From assembly GCF_000149955.1 (NCBI RefSeq), contig NC_031000.1:2287014-2351013 (forward strand): a stretch of 64,000 nucleotides of DNA, written 5' to 3'. How positions within the stretch are numbered: position 1 is the first letter of the stretch; each line of letters starts with the position of its first letter. The position numbers and the translations under genes were made by a program. Shown here in pieces: positions 12,001-28,391 of the stretch. This stretch comes from Fusarium oxysporum f. sp. lycopersici 4287 (taxonomy: Eukaryota; Ascomycota; Sordariomycetes; Hypocreales; Nectriaceae). The notes beneath the pieces are model-generated. The model did not search any database. It saw only the letters and a program-made list of their open reading frames with translations, and was not told where the DNA came from.

Positions 12001-12136
12001 TATTGGAGCCTCAGGTCAGCACCTTCATTTCAAGTATATCAATTCAATTCAAGTTAAGTAAGTTCATGGACGATTTTATTTCAAGTAATCAAGTTGGACC
12101 CCCAAACTTGACTTACTTGAATTGAAGTCAGCGCTG
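9045..12136 (+). mobile_element. hAT-superfamily DNA transposon, 3092 bp, with disrupted transposase
   Basis: The left end starts CAGCGCTGACCTCAATTCAA and the right end is its inverse with a single C/T difference (CAGCGCTGACTTCAATTCAA on the minus strand). Both subterminal regions are full of short TCAAGTAAG-like repeats (about 9060-9170 and 12026-12125), typical of hAT ends. The 8-bp flanks (CGGCGATT left, ATCCGTGC right) do not match, so the target duplication expected for hAT is missing. Confidence 0.85.
9410..11994 (+). pseudogene. hAT transposase with BED finger and C-terminal dimerisation domain, frameshifted
   Basis: Exon 1 starts at the ATG at 9410. An intron at 9766-9825 joins it to the long second exon, completing a BED-type zinc finger (CSKCDERG...SPIEHLRRSH). 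The second exon, open to 11152, carries the hAT core: FSFDLWTSPNRYAFLGLHAHYLD, VCDNASSNDTC, RCFGHILNLAARAFL and NNETRWNSTFLMIQRAI. Between about 11145 and 11490 the frame is lost. It resumes with ISFKFKSVSWLEANWTSDEQLVWLRDAK and the dimerisation block (LNPVLWWKDHQEEYPRLSKFALDILAIPAMSVDPERTFS) to the stop at 11994. A further intron is possible near 11150-11195, but that stretch also contains stops in all frames, so I treat the gene as broken. Confidence 0.8.
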
Positions 12137-14382
12137 ATCCGTGCGCACTGGCCGCCGTCAAAGTTACAAAGCACCATTAGTCCCTTCAAGTGATCATCGT
12201 GGGCTTCCAAATATGCGCGAGCGGCTTTGGCATCCCAGGTACTCTGGTTTTGACCCTGTTCTTGGAGCAGACCGTCGACCGGGGATATGCATGCTCTCAG
12301 TAGTAACTCGGGGTAGGCATCTGTTAGCTGATTGACGGGATCGGATACGAAGGAGTAGCCCGGTGTTGTCGTTGATAGATTATCTCGAATCAGCGACAAA
12401 TCGAGGTGAGTAGGCTCCCAATCATACATCAAACGGGAACACGATGCTGTGACTGAGCGCAGCACTTTACAAGCCAGGCCACGAAAGTCCACCATCGAAA
12501 GTCGTTGGTTGCCATTCCAGGACAGTACCTCGCCGTCATCGCTCCAATGGAATCGGAAATTGGACCCTTGAGACCGTCGAAGAGCGTTGCCGTAAGACAA
12601 GAGACTCAAGAATTCGCCCATGGGCGATAACGTGCCATCACACATGTACTCGCGCCGGGCCGCATTGAGCCTTCGCAGCAGCCCGTGACGCGGTGGGCGT
12701 GCAATACCACCGTAGATACGGGAGAAATGAGGCAGCACGGCTTCGAGAAAGACCAACCGAGAACAGTATATAAGTCTCGCTAGGACAGGGGTGAACCGGT
12801 GAGGAGGGAGGTATTCGTTGCCGTTAGGGGTTGACAGCCCGCGTACAGCACTGAAGTACACTAGCATCGTCGAGCTCGCGAGCCCACCTTCAAAGTCCTC
12901 GGCGATAGCAAAGTAACAAAAGCGCAGTAAGACGTCGGCCGCGGGGTCTTGGGAGAGTTGCTCCTGGTTGTCCAAAGACCAAGCGGAAGTCGACTCGGCG
13001 TCAGAGAGATCATCTGCTTCTATAGCCACACTACTCTGGCTGTCATATTCCGATGTATCGTGTCCATCACTCTCCTCACATTCACTTTCGTCCTCGCCTT
13101 CATCCTCTTCATCACCATAATCATCATCATCATTCTCCTCTTCTTCACCCCCATCATCTCCACTCTCATGATCATTCATACTCTACCCTCCATCCTGGTT
13201 ATCTGTACGGTCCATATCAGCAGGCTCCTCAGACTGCCAGACACCATCCACCCAGAGCTCACGAAGAGCTCTAAACTGATGTCTGTTCAACCCTCGCCCT
13301 GTAATTGCCCGCATAGTTGTCGGTAATAGTCGGGACAGTCGAAGCCAGAAGCAGATAAAGCGCTTTAGTTCCTTCCGGTAGACCTTCTCAGAAGACGGCT
13401 TTGCCACCAGCTCGAAGGGCGCTTTGTAGGGGCGGTCTGGGAACCTGGAACGAAGCCATCTTCTCAGGCATACATCGGTCCTCCGAACGGTCTCGCCGCA
13501 TTGGTCGAGGAGGCGATCAAGCGCTACCATCATCGATGCCAATTTTCGTTCGTCTCGCGCTAGGCTATAGATTACTTCTTCTCCCTGGATACCCAGGGGC
13601 ATAGGCTGGTTGGTCCTACAATTAGGTAACTCCGTAAGCGCAACAAGGATATTACGACGTGTATCTTGGAACATCGTTTCCCAGCCAGTACGCCGCATCC
13701 AATTCGTCTGTAAGGCGATAGATACCGGTGCTGCGCTGTCATATCGTCTCGTACGGCCTCCTTCTACACCCCCTAATCTTGCACACTCATCAGCAAAGAG
13801 CTTTTGGGCCAGCAGCTTAACGGCGTCTGGACAAGCTTGTAAGAGAGTACTACAAGGTAGAGAGCCACGGCTAGGGTTATTGTCGGTGATAATCCATGAC
13901 CTTCGGATATCGTTCGCCGACCAGCTCTGAAATGACAAGCCTTGCTGGATGTGATCACTCAGCCAGTGTCGCGTCTGTTGTCGAGCTGCGAGCTTGATGT
14001 CTTTGCTGTGCTTTGATTTGACATGGGCTAGTAAGACTTTTTCGCTGATAGAGCGAAGACCACAATGTTTACAGGCCGAACCCTTATATACCGTAAGGTA
14101 TGGGTGTGGCGGCGAGCCGTTTGATCGCAGTGGAAGTGTCTCTGGGTTTGGAAGATTGAGAGAATAGATTAGTGGCTTCAAACCACGGCGGGCAGACTTA
14201 GTTATATGATGCTTGTCGCCTGGGTGACGCGGCGCGCGTGCAGGGTTAATGGCGAAGCCGCATTCGACGCAAATTATTGCTGGCTCTGGCGAATTGTAGT
14301 ACAAGCCGAGACTCTCGAGCTTTTGGAGCTGACTCGGCCGCAATGTGACAATAGCATCAGTGTACGTCGCGAGACCTGTCAT
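12137..14382 (-). pseudogene. OrsD (DUF3505)-type zinc-finger/helicase-associated gene, 3' part cut off by hAT insertion
   Basis: The frame begins at ATG 14382. The N-terminus has two OrsD-type Cys/His fingers (IICVECGFAINPARAPRHPGDKHH and SACKHCGLRSISEKVLLAHVKSKH), then KVYRKELKRFICFWLRLSRLL. After one in-frame TAG (13183-13185) the same frame continues with a very acidic run (about 55 residues of Asp/Glu/Ser). It then gives the segment that precedes the RecQ-like helicase in large fungal OrsD-helicase proteins (SPMGEFLSLLSYGNAL, MVDFRGLACKVL, LSLIRDNLS, GYSFVSDPVNQL), ending GLMVLCNFDGGQCARIS exactly at the hAT end. The helicase half is missing. One nonsense codon and truncation make it non-functional; the TAG could derive from CAG by RIP. 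Confidence 0.65.
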
Positions 14383-14564: not shown

Positions 14565-14693
14565 GAAACGCGGCGCATTTCGCGTTCTCGGTTTACAGGC
14601 CTAAATGGAAATGCGGCGCATTTCCAGAGGGGAAATTCGGGGTAAGAAAATGGAGATTCTGATTGGTGCAGAAGTGGAAATGCGGCGCATTTC
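14565..14693. promoter_or_regulatory. Triple-palindrome module A upstream of the OrsD-like gene
   Basis: Three 17-bp near-palindromes lie 180-310 bp upstream of the ATG at 14382: GAAACGCGGCGCATTTC (14565-14581) and GAAATGCGGCGCATTTC twice (14608-14624, 14677-14693). Each has 7-bp arms around a 3-bp centre. An ATTGG (inverse CCAAT) box sits at 14662-14666. A smaller hairpin of the same style, CACTTTC/GAAAGTG, lies near 14742-14760. The rest of 14383-15012 has no gene. A related module is at 21769-21908. Confidence 0.6.
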
Positions 14694-15012
14694 TGCTCTA
14701 CATGCTTGATTAGGGGTGTGAGCCAATGAAAGACCGCGAATTTCCACTTTCACCGAAAGTGAGCCGGATAAAAGGGGTGTAGCAGGCGGCATCCTGTTGC
14801 CTAGACGATCGGCAGACTGAACATGAGTACAAGAGACCGACTCTTGCCGCTCCTTTAGAAAGAAAATCAAGTGCTCATTTGATCTTGGCTGTCCATCCGT
14901 ACATGCGAGAGGTAGCATCTTAGCATTTTGCATCGTGATAGTGGCCCACTTAGCTTTGCGCCGCCTTCATGATGTTCAGTAGCTTGATCGTTTTTTTTGG
15001 AGGCGCCCTAAC

Positions 15013-18000
15013 TCAGCTCGTGCTCTCATAAGCTGATCCCTCGCTATCATCCACATTAGAGGCGCAGAGCTCGAGCCTTCGGAATGTCACAGGAAAAAGA
15101 CGCCGATGGGTGTCGCATAATGATTCAAAAAATCGGATGGGAGGAGAGATGCCAGCTTGTTCCAAGGTACAGAATCCCAGTTGTTCATCAATTAAAGCAA
15201 GGACCGCAGTCTCATACTCAATTTCTTCCGCATCTGGGTGTTTGATAAGTTTAGTAACAATCTCAAGATCGGTCTCACTGTTGCTCAATACCCGGTCTTT
15301 CTTAGGAATGCCTGTTATGCCAGCTTCACGATAGTATTGCGCAATCCTTGGCGCAAAGTCAGGCGACCGTGATGGAATTCGGTGACATTTTAGAGTCCTC
15401 ACTCTTTCACGCAACAATCCCGATGCTGTTTCCATGGTCAAAATGAAGCGTATTTTTGCTGACGGATTTTGAAGTCTTGAATAGAGCTCCTGAGCATCCG
15501 GGCCTCTCAAGATTGTCTGGGCGAGGCCGCTGGTAGGCCCGGATAAGAGGTACAACAGTAGAAACTGCAGGTTTACCTCATATAGAACGCAAATGTTGCC
15601 GAAACCCATGATAGGTTTCTCTAGATTCGACACTGAGGAAGGTATTCCCATCTCATCTTGCTGGAAGCCCCCAACCAGTAGAACTGTCGCATTCAAGTCC
15701 TGGCAAACCTTTGCCATACTTGTTCCCACTTTTATAATCTCACAAAGGCGCTCGTTGTGCGATTCCCAGCCATTCTTAGTAGAATCATCGTCACTGCCGC
15801 TTTGAACAGGACAATATGCTCTACAAGAGAGAAATGCCAGAAGGAGATTGGTGAGAGCTGTTCCTTTTCTCGCGAAGGGGGTCTCATAACAATGGATACT
15901 ATGGTTAACGCCATAATCGTGTGGGTCAGCACCTAATGAAAGCAATGCGTTGACAAGTCTCGTTGATGGCACCCTATCTCCAATGGGTTGATCGGGGATC
16001 CACCCATTGCGCAAGATATCGGTAGCCAAGCGAGTTGAAGCTTCCCTTGTGAGGCTCGATATAACGAATTCATCGAATTGAGAATACCCTATCAAGTTAC
16101 TCAAGAATGGAACTTGAGGATCCCACGGATACTCATTGGATCGGATCAGCTGCTTGTCGTAAAGGGGCTTCATGATATCAAGCATGTTAATAGCGACTTC
16201 TAGTCCCCTACTTCCTTCGAGTTCTGATAATTTGATGATCTTGTCGAAGATGCTGTCGGCTTTTGTTATAATCCCCCAATGGGTGTTACAGGTAACAAGA
16301 AGACAGAGTAAACCGTTAAAAAGGCGGGTATGCATGACTGTTTCGGACAGGGACCCCCATCCTAGGATACTTCGGCCAGCTTCCGTGTCTCTCAAGAAGT
16401 CGTGGGCCGTGCGATGGATAAATGATATGCGGCTCAATGCCGGATCGACGGTGTTGCGTACATCTTCGGATGTGAAATCATCCGTGGTAAAGGGCTGGAC
16501 TGATTGTGGCTCAATCTGTAAGAGCCCTGCGCAACGTGTGAGTATAGAGCGTTTTGTCTCATCGCATAACTGTCGAATTCGCGCAAGGCCCATCCTGTCT
16601 GAGCTTCTGAGAATAGTTTGTTGTGTTTCGATGTTTTCAGCACATGCGACTTGAAATAATGTGGGCAAATCCGTTAAGCTGCCGTCACAACGATAATTGT
16701 TCCAGTAGTACATCGTGAAAACCGTCGTCTGCTGGAGAGCGTAGCGGAAATATCTTGCAGCTGTTTCTCGATACACGGAGTTATTCTCGTTTAGCCTTCG
16801 CCACATATCGATATATAGCCTCTCAAGATCTGCAGGAAGTTGATCCAGACGAGCAAAGAGAAGATCATCTGAATCATCATTCTCGATCCCTTCAATGAGA
16901 CTTCGAGTTGCGATTTGGAGCCACAAAAACACCCCTTGGGCTTTGTCAACGAGCCGTTCTGTTAGCTTTTCGTAAGTGCTGAATGAAATGCATTGACCTG
17001 AAAGCAAAGGTTTGAGCTTTTCGCGTACAAAGATGCGCATGTCAGGTCTCGTTAGGTCTTCAAGTAGGATTCCAGGTGGGTTCATGACCTCAAGCCACCT
17101 CATGATCTGGACCTCTGGTCGGGTAGCAATACATAACTTGACATTGGGAAGATTCAAGATACCCTCAATCGACTGAATTAGCTTGCGATAGCCGTCTTCA
17201 TTTCGAATTTCATCGAGGCCATCGATGAAAATGCACAGATGTCTAACATTCTTGTTGGAGACATATTGCAAAACAGCATCCAAATCTTTGATAGACCAGT
17301 CACTATACTCGGTGTGTGAGGAAAGATGTGTGAAGCGGCATAGTGTATGCTGGATCAAATCCCGTTTGTTTCGCAGCTTTTGGTACAGCAATGAGCATAA
17401 GAGACCTTTGATGCTGTTCTGTTCATGGGATCCAATTTTCCAGATAAAATGATGCACGATCATGACATCTGAACTCCAACGTTGGAGCAGCTCTTTGGTT
17501 CTTTCATGATCCAGAATAAATTTGATAAGGGTGCTTTTTCCAGATCCTGGCTTGCCTTGAATGTAAAATAGTTTACCGTCTGATTGCAACCATTCAGTGA
17601 AAGAAGCCCAAGACCCATGAACCTCGTCCCTGTCACTCATCCAGGTGGGGTATCTCGCTGTGTCAGATGATCCAGACATTTCAGACTCGTTGTCGGTAGT
17701 TTCCATAGGTTCATAAGACGAGAATATCCGCTTGAATGTCGCCTCCCTCGAGTCCAGAACATCGTTATATCGCTGATTCATGTTGGAGGTCTTGAGGCTT
17801 CGCAAAAAGATATCGCATGCTTTCCTTGATTCTGCAGCAGTACTGAATGCGAGGGCTTGGGTTGTCGTGTGTAGGTTGACGGATTGCTCAATTTTAGCCG
17901 CTTCATGGGCCAATGTATCCCGCATCTGAGTACTGCCCTCTTTGATGAGATCTTCAAGTCTAGTGTGACCACGTGCGAGTTGTCTCACGAGGCGTTGAGT

Positions 18001-18547
18001 ATCGGCTGCAAGGTGGTGAAACCCTTCTTCTTGCTGTAATGTGATTGCATAGCTCCGCGAACTATAATAATCATTGATTAACTCGAGGACAGCTATCACT
18101 GACGGAGACTCACCATAAATGCGACATTATCTCGGTTTCCATTTCCTGCGTATACCTCGACAGCGAGAGTTCCAGAAGCTCAATCTTCTTCCGATGCCTG
18201 GCTCCTCTCAGCGTAGCATGAATAGCATGCAGTAGATTACGTTTGTCGCATAAACCAGTCACGAATCGAGCCTCCTTTTTCAGCTCTTGCGCAGATTCCT
18301 TGCAAGCTTTGGCAATGGCTTGAAGCTCGTTGTTGTTGACCTGTGGGTGCAGCTTTGCCATCACTTCGCAACGAATCTGGACTCGATCAACGGCATCCGA
18401 CATTTGCTGGGCGTGGCGTTCGAGATTTTCTTCAGACGTCAGCTTTCCATCGTAGATACCTTTACAGGTGACTATTAAGTCTCGTGCGAACGAAATTACT
18501 TGCAGAACAGCGCTTGCCGCGCCGAGCGCTTCAAAACCTGTCGACAT
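15013..18547 (-). CDS. STAND/NLR-like protein: helical N-terminal domain plus NACHT NTPase
   Basis: CDS is complement(join(15013..18061, 18114..18547)), 1160 aa; the 52-nt intron (18062-18113) starts GTGAGT, has a GTTAAT branch region and ends TATAG. The N-terminus (STGFEALGAASAVLQVISFARDLIVTCKGIYDG) resembles the Helo-like domain of fungal STAND proteins. After a long helical stretch comes the NACHT core: Walker A GKPGSGKST (about 314-322), Walker B LCIFIDGLDE (about 420-429), then CIATRPEV and the DKAQGVFLWLQIATRSL winged-helix region. The C-terminal 600 residues show no obvious WD, TPR or ankyrin array; one ankyrin-like LVNALLSLGADPHDYG is seen. Fungal proteins of this type act in heterokaryon incompatibility and self/non-self response; that role is inferred from the family. 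No breaks. Confidence 0.85.
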
Positions 18548-19270
18548 GGCTTTGACGATCTTGTGTGTTGAGAATTTTCACATCATATGAGGACGGTGAT
18601 GAGGAAACACATACCTGCCAGCTGATCAGTTCCTGCTAGATGATCTGATGGCTTTATGCAGGCTGACTAACCCAAGTTATCCATCGACGTATCGAAAGAT
18701 CATTACCCTTTACCTTATGTGGGGCGAGGGCCCCAGGTGAGCCAATCTAGCTTGCTAGGTTGGGCGCAAAAGTATGAGACAGCCCTATGTATTATTCGCA
18801 GGCGATATGAGTCAAATTCTCCACCAAAATGGGGTTGCGGGGCCAACGTACATTATTGCGGCCTCGTCGCTTTGGTCGAAGGTGAGTCCCTGAATGGTGC
18901 TTAGGGTTAGCTAGCGCCGATCTGGGGTAAGGGTTATGCAGCACAGAGCAGCTCACGAGTTGGAATTTAAACAGAACAACATCTACTACTTTATTTTATC
19001 TAGTCACGAGGAATAATCTGATGAGACCAAATCAAGCAGTAATACAATGGGGGGTTATATCAAATTGAACGAGTAATACTAGATGCTGCTCTGGCGGCTT
19101 TGTAAGGCATCTATTCGACCTGGCGCCGTCATTAAATCCCACTTTTGGTATCAACGTCAGCTGAAAGGCAAACTGTTGAAGAGTATTAGAGACTACTATT
19201 GCGCGATGGAGCTAGCTGGCCCAAAACTCTCTGCATTGCCAGCCGGTTTGGACAATTTCTGAAGCTCTTG
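18548..19270. other. Intergenic stretch without a recognisable gene
   Basis: Promoter side of the STAND gene, then unique-looking sequence. Only short ORFs without recognisable motifs are present. Confidence 0.5.
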
Positions 19271-20033
19271 GGGAAAAGAGAAAACAGCCTTGGTGTATTG
19301 CCGTTTTCGGTTTTGATGTAAACCCTGTCGAAGGCTTGAAAACGGCTTGCTTGGCCGGCTGCAGCCACAACAGCCCTTTTGGTGGGGTAAGAAAAGCAGA
19401 CTTGGACACATGCTCGTCTGTATGCACACAGGGACTTAGTGGCGGGCAGCTGACCACGTAGCTGATGCACAGGACCATCGGGTGTACAATGACACTTGTC
19501 ACAAAATAACAAATGCAGGCGAGCAATTCGATACGATGGGAACGAATGGGCAATCATTAGCTGTAGTGCGTTCCTCGGTTGTGAGGTGACAGGTCTATCC
19601 GCCCACCATCTCAGCATTAAGTCGTTGTTGGGCACACCGGCCTGCTCCGCGGAGATCGCCGAGTCCTGACCAGGTGATCTGTATTACTGATTCGACCTTG
19701 AAGAAGAAAACCTCCTGCTGCATTAGAGGTATTGGCTGTAACCGAGATTCCTCTCTCGTCCTAGAAAATAAATACCGATGAGTTGCTGTGGGTGGTGGCA
19801 GAGAAGGTAGGTAAAACCGGCAAGATGCGGCATTTTTATAACTCATATTGGGCAAATGTCTTTAAATCGTTTCTCCCTAAGATGCAAACCTGCGACAACG
19901 CAAAAGCAGTAATGAACTTTGCCAGCCGTATTGCATATTTGCCTTTGTCGAGCTGAGGTGGCTAGGTGCAAAGTTGCAGGGTCAGCTCATCAACTGCCGT
20001 CCGTTCGAAGGAGGCCCGAGCGTTGATTATGGA
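19271..20033. repeat. Left arm of a long imperfect inverted repeat
   Basis: The reverse complement of this stretch aligns by eye with 20178-20944 over its whole length, with many C/T and G/A differences and a few indels. Shared blocks include TTGCCAGCCG, GAGCTGAGGTGGCTAG, GTTCGAAGGAGGCC, AATGCAGCAGG, ACAGCTAATGATTGCC and AAAACCGAAAACGGC. The arm contains minus-strand ORFs (up to 149 aa, 19186-19635) without a known domain. It may be a degenerate repeat family present as two inverted copies. Confidence 0.75.
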
Positions 20034-20177
20034 CCAATTAACCCTCTGTGACATTCAAGTCCGGCAGGGAACTGATGGTTCTTCATTATGGATGGCTATG
20101 GTGGGGCTCTGATCTACCGGTACATGGTAATCTCCCATGCCAAGATCCATAAAGCTGCAAGGACGGAAAAAAGGGCA

Positions 20178-20944
20178 TTTAGTCAGACCAACGCTCAGGC
20201 CTCCTTCGAACATTCGACAGTCGGGAACAAGTCCTGCAACCTTACAGCTAGCCACCTCAGCTCGACGGTGGTAATGTGCAATTCGGCTGGCAAAGTATAT
20301 GATTGCTTTTAGTGTGGCCGCCGGTTTAAGTATCAGGCAGCAACGGGCCGAGGAGATTTCGGCTACGTTGGCTGAGAAAATGGCGCACCCCCGCCACCAG
20401 AGACGAAGCAACTCGTCGGTATCCATAATGAGGTGAGATAGGAAGCTCTATTACAGCCAATACGTATAATGCAGCAGGCTGCTTTTTTCTTTAAGGGCGG
20501 ATCCATAATACAGGTTCCTTCGTCAGGTCTTAGCTATCTTCGCAGAGCGGGCCGATCTGCCTAACAACAACTTGATGCTAATATGGTTTGCGGGGTAAAG
20601 CGTGTCACCTCACAATTGAGGAAACATACGACAGCTAATGATTGCCTATTCGGTTCCCCTCACTGCCATGCCGCAATTGTCCTCTCGCACCACTAAGTGA
20701 CTCGTCTAGCCGCTTTTGAGTCGCTCGCCTGCACTTGTCAGTCTGTCACAAGTGCCACTGAACGCCCGATGGGCCTATGCTTCCATCGCTGTGTGGTCAG
20801 CTGCCTGCTATTAAGCCCTGTGTGGTTAGTCTGTGCTGAGGGGCTTTTATGGCTGCGGCCGGTCAAGCAAGCCATTTTAGGGATTTTAATAGGGTTTATA
20901 TTAAAACCGAAAACGGCTATAGACTAAGGCTGTTTTCTCTTTCC
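20178..20944. repeat. Right arm of the long imperfect inverted repeat
   Basis: Inverse counterpart of 19271-20033; the central spacer is about 144 bp (20034-20177). This arm looks more decayed: it is richer in A/T at mismatched positions and has only shorter ORFs. The ends fade out near TGTTTTCTCTTT on both sides, and no target duplication is visible. Confidence 0.75.
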
Positions 20945-21768
20945 TCGGGGAAGGAATAAGCTCTGTTATCTATCCCTTCAGTGGCACTTAGTCCTGCATG
21001 TCTTATTACCCCGCCCTGTTCAGCACTCAATAAAGAACGGAGTTGATAGTTTCCAAGAATCAGACAGCACAATCCAGGGATGGCTGTGGAGGTTCGTGTA
21101 GACGCGGGTTGCTTTGTTATCTGTGGGGGTTGTAAATATGCAGCTGCTTCTCTTTTCATCCATGCCTGGCGCGGCCATGCAACCAATAATTAGATTTCAA
21201 CGACTCATAATGCGACGTCTCTGAGCCACTAGCTTGATTCGGAAGGTGTAACGCTGGACCCTGCTCTGCGACTGATTTAATATGAAGCCTTCTAGTTTAA
21301 TTATGAGTTGTAGAAGGAAAAAATATTCAATTAAAAAAAACGAATGCGCTCCTATATTATTAAGTATCTAAGGATCTGATGAAGCTACAAAAGACAAGAG
21401 ATATTGGTTGTGTCGCTGAAAACTTAAGCTGCAATTGCCTACTGGATTTGCGTATGTGACGCGTGCTCAGACCGTCTCTCAAAATGGGACAAATAACTCG
21501 CCACAGTATGGATTACATGGGAATAAACCGGAGATAGACAGGCACTTGAGAAGTGAACAGGGGTACACGACAATTAGGAATAGAAGAGTAGGGAAGAGGT
21601 CCATTACGACTAAGCATAGAAAAGTATATAAGATAGGATAAAGTGGAGGAGATTGAGTAGATGTTGTACGAAGACGATAGATATGTCAGGTTCAGCAAAC
21701 GATGGTAAAATGCTGTTGTTTGGGTCTGGAGTGATCAAGTTGTTGAACTTGACAAGGGTTAGCCGACG
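20945..21768. other. Intergenic stretch without a recognisable gene
   Basis: No motif-bearing ORF seen. The only structure I can support nearby is the palindrome module that begins at 21769. Confidence 0.45.
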
Positions 21769-21908
21769 GAAACGCGTCGCGTTTCGTGTTTTAGGTTTTT
21801 AATTTCCATTAGTGCGGCATAAGAAACGCACTGCGTTTCCATCGAAAGAAATATGGGTCGGAGATTTTGGACGATGATTGGTCAAAAACAGGAAACGCAG
21901 TGCGTTTC
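21769..21908. promoter_or_regulatory. Triple-palindrome module B, no gene attached
   Basis: Three 17-bp palindromes with 7-bp arms and 3-bp centres: GAAACGCGTCGCGTTTC (21769-21785), GAAACGCACTGCGTTTC (21823-21839) and GAAACGCAGTGCGTTTC (21892-21908). The second and third are each other's reverse complement. ATTGG lies at 21877-21881, 15 bp before the third palindrome, exactly as in module A, and the second-to-third spacing is 69 bp in both. Text following the third palindrome (ATGCTTGAGTAGGTG here, ATGCTTGATTAGGGGTG in A) is also similar, so the two modules are homologous. No OrsD-like ORF is seen on either side. Confidence 0.6.
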
Positions 21909-22414
21909 TGATAATAATGCTTGAGTAGGTGAAGCGGGATCAGGCCCGGGCATCCAGAATAAGCTTTTGCAAATGCTTAGGATGCAGACGAGGCACACGG
22001 AATTAACCAGATACGGCATCAAACATGAATGGTGGTCGCAGCAGCCCAGAAAGCCGTGGAGGTTATTGATCATCTGCAGACATCTATTTGGGTCTATGAC
22101 GCGGAGTATAGGCTACTCTTGCACTGATCACCGCTTCCCCACCACTCACAGCTAACCCTGGTCCGTCCCCGCTCCATTGTCACCATGCCATTCCTGACCT
22201 CGGCTCTTTCCCACCGTTACCCGCTTTGACCCTTATTCCTGAATCCAGGGCTTGCGAGGTTTAAGAGCCACAATGCAGCTTGTTTTGCTAGGGGGTGGCG
22301 CAGTGGAGCGAATCCTTCTGTCTCTTTGTTGCTTCTCTTGGTAATTGGTAGGTTTCAATATCATTCATATTGGATGTCGTGCTTCAGAATACCACAGGTC
22401 GCATCCTAGGTGTA
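21909..22414. other. Intergenic stretch without a recognisable gene
   Basis: Sequence continuing from module B to the pogo-type relic; no ORF with a recognisable motif. Confidence 0.4.
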
Positions 22415-27100: not shown

Positions 27101-28391
27101 CCAATCTGACTTTCTTTGCTTTTGGTCTCGCTTGATGGTTTCCCTTGCTTAGCAAGCCCTCCAAAGGGTTCCAAGCCGTAGGATCAGATAATTCCGGGGC
27201 CGGGAGGATCTGGAAATGCGTGACAAGGTAGAGAATGACAGTGCACAGCGCGCGCGAAGCAACATGACTGGCCACGCACATTCGACCACCCATTACCAAT
27301 GCGAATTGTGTCAGCGAAGTGAACTGTATCACCAGATAGCCACAGCTTTGGAATTTCAAACGTTTTGCCTGGCCTGTCTCTCTGTTGTCGTCGTCCGGAC
27401 GAGGCGGGAACCACTGTGTAACGGTCGCACCTGTCAGACATTACGTGTATTCGGTCCATTGATCCAGATTGATATATTTTCTGTCTATTACTATTTTGGT
27501 CGACTTGGAACCATTTGTTGCCTGACCTGGAAGAGAAAAATCGTTGACAGCTGATTCCAGCAATCCATGGTAGTTCAGCGGGAGGCGTTGGGGATTCCGT
27601 CGATGACCTTCCTTTGCATCTTGGATTAATCCACTGGTGCTTTTGGCACAATGAGCTTGAATCTTTGGAACCTGAGGCAGAAACGTGCCGCATATTCGAC
27701 ACTTGAGTCCATCCCGCTTTGGTGCACCAAGACAAATAATGGGTTGGATCGTCGGCGGTGGATATTGTATTTGATCGAGCTAAGACTGGTTTTGTAATAT
27801 ATGGGGGAGTATTTGAATTGTTTTTGCTAGTTTGCGTCGGCTCTCCGCGTTTATGTCATGATGCCGTGTTCGCAAGTGCGTAGCAACTTCACCAGCAACG
27901 CACCCGAACTGACACACTTGACATATAAGGATTTTATATTGAGGAAGCAGAATGAACTGTTAGATTACATCAGACGAGCCTGATTCTATGTTAGAACTCA
28001 TGGTCGTGGTACAGTAGTGATCGAAAAGTTGAAGTGCCACGGTCAAAATTCTAACTTCTCAAGAATTGCAGTCCCCCCCTTCTAAACGCTAGTTCCTCGC
28101 GCATGACGCGCCTAATCAGACAGGAAGCTTGGGGTTGAAAGGATTCAAGGCGTGGTGCTGCTGCAATTTGGCGCTATCGGAAAGTGGTAGGAAAATCCGC
28201 GACTCGCTTGTATTTACGGCCCGCTTATAAAGCAAGTTACTCCTGCACGTTTCCTGACCCGACCCCTGTCCGTCTGGTCGTGCTCCGATATTCCTCCACA
28301 GCAAGGCTTCCTGGCGCATTCCAAGCCGTCGTGTTCCCACAATCTTCCCAGCAGTTGACAGCGCAGCTCCTTTCTGGGAAGTTGAGGTCTC
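27101..28391. other. Intergenic stretch without a recognisable gene
   Basis: Overlapping ORFs on both strands at 27184-27735 have no recognisable domain. The 27429-27477 segment recurs at 29662-29711. Confidence 0.45.
27429..27477. repeat. Copy 1 of a ~50-bp direct repeat
   Basis: About 50 bp starting ACCTGTCAGACATTACG recur in the same orientation at 29662-29711 with about six transitions. The function is unknown; it may be a remnant of a dispersed element. Confidence 0.7.

Follow-up and report, generated by a model that had tools for sequence, protein, structure and literature searches.

Introduction

What are the two groups of three palindromes found in a 64,000-nucleotide stretch of the Fusarium oxysporum f. 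sp. lycopersici 4287 genome (NC_031000.1, positions 2,287,014 to 2,351,013; the whole stretch is called the window here), and which protein reads them? An earlier note, made from the letters of the window, described them as modules A and B and took them for a conserved promoter or recruitment module ahead of an OrsD/helicase-like gene. We find that both modules are right-hand termini of mobile elements whose gene encodes an OrsD/tyrosine-recombinase protein. Our reading, to which we assign a probability of about two in three, is that each terminus combines a promoter with a binding array of three dyads, and that in each family a dimer of the element-encoded protein recognises the family's own version.

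Two modules of three dyads in the window

All six palindromes of modules A and B lie where they had been reported, with 0 mismatches each (Table 1). With up to two mismatches allowed, the palindrome pattern matched 7 times in the window versus 0.90 expected, and none of 100 shuffles reached 7. As also reported, the second and third palindromes are 69 bp apart in both modules, and ATTGG starts 15 bp ahead of the third; we take this motif to act as a CCAAT box. The distance from the first to the second is 43 bp in module A versus 54 bp in module B, a difference of 11 bp or about one helical turn. The form GAAAyGC-nnn-GCrTTTC, with 7-bp arms around three bases, needs to be redrawn: the dyad consists of two 8-bp arms and a single central base, 17 bp in all. 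The modules are homologous and differ in their arms (ATGC/GCAT in A versus ACGC/GCGT in B). Symmetry, thought to be kept throughout, is kept in five of the six copies but not in copy 1 of module A (GAAACGC...GCATTTC).

Table 1. Features of the two element ends in the window. CCAAT boxes are assigned from sequence; distances run from the start of a palindrome to the right-hand end of the element.
Feature	Position	Strand	Description
Module A palindrome 1	14565..14581	.	GAAACGCG-G-CGCATTTC, arms mismatched at one position; 150 bp before end
Module A palindrome 2	14608..14624	.	GAAATGCG-G-CGCATTTC; 107 bp before end
Module A palindrome 3	14677..14693	.	GAAATGCG-G-CGCATTTC; 38 bp before end
Module A putative CCAAT box	14662..14666	-	ATTGG on +; CCAAT on OrsD gene strand
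Right terminus, element A	14702..14714	+	ATGCTTGATTAGG; flanks after terminus unrelated in other copies
Element A gene, broken	12137..14382	-	Frames 13183-14382 and 12076-13179, one in-frame stop between; truncated
Module B palindrome 1	21769..21785	.	GAAACGCG-T-CGCGTTTC; 161 bp before end
Module B palindrome 2	21823..21839	.	GAAACGCA-C-TGCGTTTC; 107 bp before end
Module B palindrome 3	21892..21908	.	GAAACGCA-G-TGCGTTTC; 38 bp before end
Module B putative CCAAT box	21877..21881	-	ATTGG on +; CCAAT on -
Right terminus, element B	21917..21929	+	ATGCTTGAGTAGG
Element B remnant	21586..21929	-	Terminus and promoter only

The modules are termini of mobile elements

The exact motif occurs at 207 sites across the 61.2-Mb genome, compared with 0 for the reversed-pattern control. 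A common and unspaced motif would have spoken against the modules as units; the motif is indeed common, but it is clustered. Among 50 of the 207 exact sites that were listed, 44 fall within loci that the module searches had found, 2 make up a further pair with the 69-bp distance, and the other 4 stand alone. The module searches returned at least 44 and at least 40 matches (40 of 50 and 40 of 59 candidates scored), and copy counts are accordingly lower bounds. The listed copies lie mostly on contigs C3, C6, C14 and C15 and at the far ends of C1 and C2, which we take to be accessory regions of strain 4287.

Sixty loci were cut out, yielding 37 distinct right flanks (22 A and 15 B sites). The right end reads CTTGA[GT]TAGG in 55 of the 60 loci, with one-base differences in the others (L012, L018, L019, L025, L027). 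When all were compared against all, homology stopped 0-12 bases past this end, mostly 0-3, except in copies sharing a larger duplication; on the gene side it broke off anywhere, from less than 100 bp to beyond the 1.6 kb compared. A sharp end inserted repeatedly at unrelated flanks (37 distinct ones) identifies modules A and B as right-hand termini of mobile elements. The earlier note had named two copies of one ordinary transposon terminus as an outcome that would refute it, and this holds in part: both modules are termini, but of two related and diverged element families. A and B occur together and nearly identical at five places (two on C3, one each on C6, C15 and C71), and the pair in the window is therefore part of a segmental duplication.

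The dyads are anchored to the physical end. Relative to it, the three A sites start at -150 (-151 in L009 and L013), -107 and -38, those of B at -160 or -161, -106 or -107, and -38, so that the first spacings of the two families differ by 10-11 bp across copies, about one helical turn. The third exact-pattern palindrome stands at -38 in 34 of the 37 sites (19/22 A, 15/15 B), and all three exact-pattern sites are present in 8/22 A and 12/15 B. Among 15 B copies, palindrome positions are more conserved than spacers (0.987 versus 0.910), a value that 2 of 140 rotations reached.

The element gene encodes a tyrosine recombinase

The element gene is read inward from the palindrome end, starting about 330 bp in, and going by the best full-length copies the element measures about 4 kb. 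Module A does sit at the promoter position of an OrsD gene, as had been proposed, but the label helicase-like does not apply: a domain search found no helicase domain in the protein next to module A or in the A/B protein, whose order is OrsD (C2H2), tyrosine recombinase, OrsD. The identity of this middle part is well supported by the fold of the predicted model together with the catalytic residues. In the structure comparison, rows 1-36 were all named recombinase, integrase, topoisomerase or protelomerase, and the catalytic R, K, R, H and Y are conserved, except that the H of HxxR is Q or R. Both the fold and the catalytic residues expected of a tyrosine recombinase are thus found.

Both window copies are broken. 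Homology of the A gene ends at about 12137, ahead of the catalytic K, second R, H and Y, and the recombinase is inactive in this copy; element B is geneless, with no coding trace in the 1.69 kb on the gene side of the window copy.

Arms change in pairs between families

Upstream of homologous genes (45-48% protein identity) lie palindromes that have other arms (GTAACGGG, GGAACGGG) and the same layout. L076 carries GAAACGGG-C-CCCGTTCC (one mismatch), GTAACGGG-G-CCCGTTAC and GTAACGGG-C-CCCGTTAC, and L079 carries three GGAACGGG-type sites, the first with one mismatch; in both the spacing is 43 and 68 bp. L075 has kept one perfect site. In these three loci the last site starts 38 bp ahead of CTAGAGTAGG, CTTGAGTAGA or CTAGAGTAGA and is preceded by GATTGG. 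In L077, a 35% relative, two GTATCAGG sites, the first of them imperfect, are spaced by 42 bp. Across the nine upstream stretches L071-L079, three sites are found in L076 and L079, two in L077 and one in L075, and none in L071-L074 (near-identical copies of one another) or L078 (partly N). Pairs 68 bp apart occur at 11 places compared with 0 in the control, three of the 11 having another arm type, AGAACGGG.

Pairing of the arms was assessed on 13 representative sites chosen by hand from five families, the AGAACGGG type being left out; the sequences are related, and the shuffle counts are not probabilities. In this set 95.2% of arm cells are paired versus 77.8 when shuffled, two-sided changes that keep the symmetry occur at 6 of 8 arm positions versus 2.9, and slid registers give 25-52% pairing. 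As far as these aligned sites go, the arms have diverged symmetrically between families. The arm covariation first noted between A and B is therefore borne out more strongly by relatives outside the window. Paired changes between families include A-T to T-A, A-T to G-C and C-G to G-C, and the innermost pair also changes on both sides (G-C to A-T).

These changes bear on the proposal that C-to-T deamination (at CpG in the earlier note) or repeat-induced point mutation on both strands mimicked covariation. The A/B difference is of this type and, taken alone, may have arisen that way, but deamination cannot make the changes seen between families. For the site set as a whole it is refuted, and we give it next to no weight.

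A proposed promoter and binding array at the element end

The constant distance to the end, the promoter position, the CCAAT box and the family-specific symmetric arms together make a dimer of the element-encoded protein the likely reader of these sites. The earlier idea of a conserved promoter module read by a dimeric protein is thus right in that the sites look suited to such a protein, but incomplete, as the modules are transposon termini. Nothing in the data hints at the silencing role that the note had also considered. We propose that the last 150-160 bp serve at once as promoter, with the CCAAT box, and as an end-anchored array of three 17-bp dyads. The dyads would most likely be read by a dimer of the element's protein, perhaps via its C2H2 fingers, and this dimer would assemble a recombination complex and control its own transcription; the dyads are probably used in recombination and in self-regulation. 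A more tentative extension, which we hold somewhat short of even odds, is that the arrays act as a family-specific DNA lock. The terminal geometry (three dyads in constant helical phase, the third 38 bp from the end) would stay the same across several families in one nucleus; the arms would change symmetrically along with the protein, each recombinase reading only its own ends and promoter.

Several observations weigh against the proposed promoter and binding array. Binding by the encoded protein, its double role and the mode of insertion are predictions. Foldseek gave no PDB match at E 0.001 or better, and the predicted structure model has a mean pLDDT of 68. Conservation in A is not clearly higher in palindromes than in spacers (0.967 versus 0.938, 15 copies; 14/129 rotations as high). 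In the pairing test, the count of further pair types was no higher than in shuffled sets (330/500), and the relatives at about 36% identity, L088-L090, have no triple palindrome. At 19 of the 37 sites the end alone is kept and a coding trace is absent, possibly through later decay or one-sided insertion. Finally, the sites mark one end only: beyond the gene, no A/B motif was found in L063 and L066-L069 and no C/D motif in L070, L080 and L081.

Sites at one end only suit a promoter role equally, and the palindromes might accordingly be transcriptional operators through which the element protein regulates itself, with no part in recombination. Their place in the promoter, at one end as far as seen, and the CCAAT box at a fixed place agree with this. 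In four families, however, the third site stands at exactly 38 bp from the physical end, which exceeds what a promoter requires, and we regard operators alone as unlikely, though still a serious alternative. It is considerably less probable that the element exploits sites of a host transcription factor. The dyads do lie near a CCAAT box, and ACGCGT, found in GAAACGCGTCGCGTTTC and GAAACGCGACGCGTTTC among the B palindrome 1 types, resembles a cell-cycle (MBF) box; but the arms of co-resident families are quite different, and ACGCGT is missing from the A, C, D and E sites. The dyads might instead act as hairpins in single-stranded DNA or RNA and not as duplex sites, since folding of three test sites gives 8-bp hairpins (z -3.1 to -5.2) and two-sided changes fit base pairing too. 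Any palindrome folds so, however, and the innermost pair beside the single central base also changes two-sidedly, although this last objection is weak because the folding program pairs across three bases. We consider hairpins very improbable.

Far end and insertion site

The far end may begin with TTCTTGATA, a candidate left end present in one A-like group and two copies of C; in family C it lies about 75 bp beyond the stop codon. With the right end TTCTTGAGTAGG it would give the direct repeat TTCTTGA. No insertion with both ends plus a matching empty site was found. In candidate empty sites at six junctions, judged by eye, CTTGAGTAGG occurs in none and GG or AGG is shared with the element end in three, too few to fix the crossover. 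The first base past the right end is G in 24, A in 10, T in 2 and C in 1 of the 37 sites. The bases flanking CTTGA at that end are T and G in 21 sites and G and T in 11 (32/37, A and B alike), a pattern (e.g. window 14704-14710 and 21919-21925) that looks like two exchangeable 7-bp cores.

At L061:1427-7812 (C71, with a duplicate on C15) two A ends in opposite orientation stand 6.4 kb apart and enclose an OTT_1508-like deaminase frame. The terminal inverted repeats that this arrangement suggested were rejected, as the far ends of L063, L069 and two C copies show no inverted copy of the end, and the inverted A end of L061 is read as a second copy. At L065:2342-6187 (C68) a B gene is interrupted by a different repeat, whose end is similar (AAGAATAGAAGAGTAGG) and whose inward frames resemble, by eye, parts of nucleoside phosphorylase, NACHT and ankyrin proteins. 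The uninterrupted counterpart of this site, in L063, reads AGTCCAGG/GTGTCGATT. A search for the missing remainder of the L065 B gene found nothing.

Comparison with known systems

Starship giant transposons carry a tyrosine recombinase gene, the DUF3435 captain, beside a sharp end and read inward. The recombinase gene of the present element likewise adjoins its sharp end and is read inward, but the element is probably about 4 kb long and has no DUF3435 Pfam match (up to E 0.1 in the L063 protein and five relatives), and we dropped the Starship reading for lack of this captain. A Helitron reading was dropped as well: Rep and helicase domains are absent, and neither a CTRR end nor insertion between A and T fits the ends, which by eye are GTAGG or TTAGG in 33/37 sites, or the bases that follow them.

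The end belongs to tyrosine-recombinase mobile elements and appears to work like the end of a Crypton. As in CryptonF, a tyrosine-recombinase gene is the only recognised enzyme gene of the A/B-type element; no terminal inverted repeats were seen in it, and it possibly has the short direct repeat TTCTTGA at both ends. Unlike CryptonF, its protein has OrsD/C2H2 domains at both ends and, in the same six proteins and at the same threshold, no GCR1_C match. An anchored triple-palindrome end is also unmentioned in the available text on Cryptons, which describes MarCry-1_FO of Fusarium oxysporum as a Mariner/Crypton composite (Kojima and Jurka, 2011, PMC3212892).

OrsD (formerly DUF3505) is also known from telomere-linked helicases, or DUF3505-helicase subtelomeric repeats, which are multicopy according to the available text of PMC12857005 and PMC5576322. 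As far as that text describes them, the element shares with them the OrsD domain and a multicopy, mobile-looking distribution, but RecQ-type helicase domains are absent from the A/B proteins and copies lie inside chromosomes, a telomere-like repeat occurring at 1 of the 37 right flanks (L054 group). In P0027, a distant relative, the OrsD/recombinase part is joined to DEAD and Helicase_C (RecQ-type) domains. This fusion prompts one to ask about a possible relationship between fungal telomere-linked helicases and recombinase elements of this kind. A further stretch resembling a recombinase, its H and Y nine apart, lies ahead of the P0027 helicase (by eye).

Our literature search listed no paper on OrsD/recombinase elements. 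For the present element, which has spread over chromosomes of Fusarium oxysporum that look accessory, the end and the gene are now defined, together with a proposed recognition code that can be put to the test. Binding sites that change symmetrically while their spacing stays fixed make a natural test case for co-evolution between recombinase and site.

Other observations

Repeated AGTCTACCCC-like units lie upstream in L088-L090; L088 and L089 also carry the palindrome ATTCTACGTAGAAT a short way ahead of an apparent end CTAGG. In L017, L024 and L025, A ends without a gene lie ahead of same-sense HET, F-box and Mutator-like transposase frames (by eye), and it is possible that these ends donate promoters. 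Within the window, an NACHT/NPHP3-type NTPase frame (15013-18547) follows the A terminus, and 27690-27956 (-) holds a remnant of another OrsD C-terminal part, at 33% identity.
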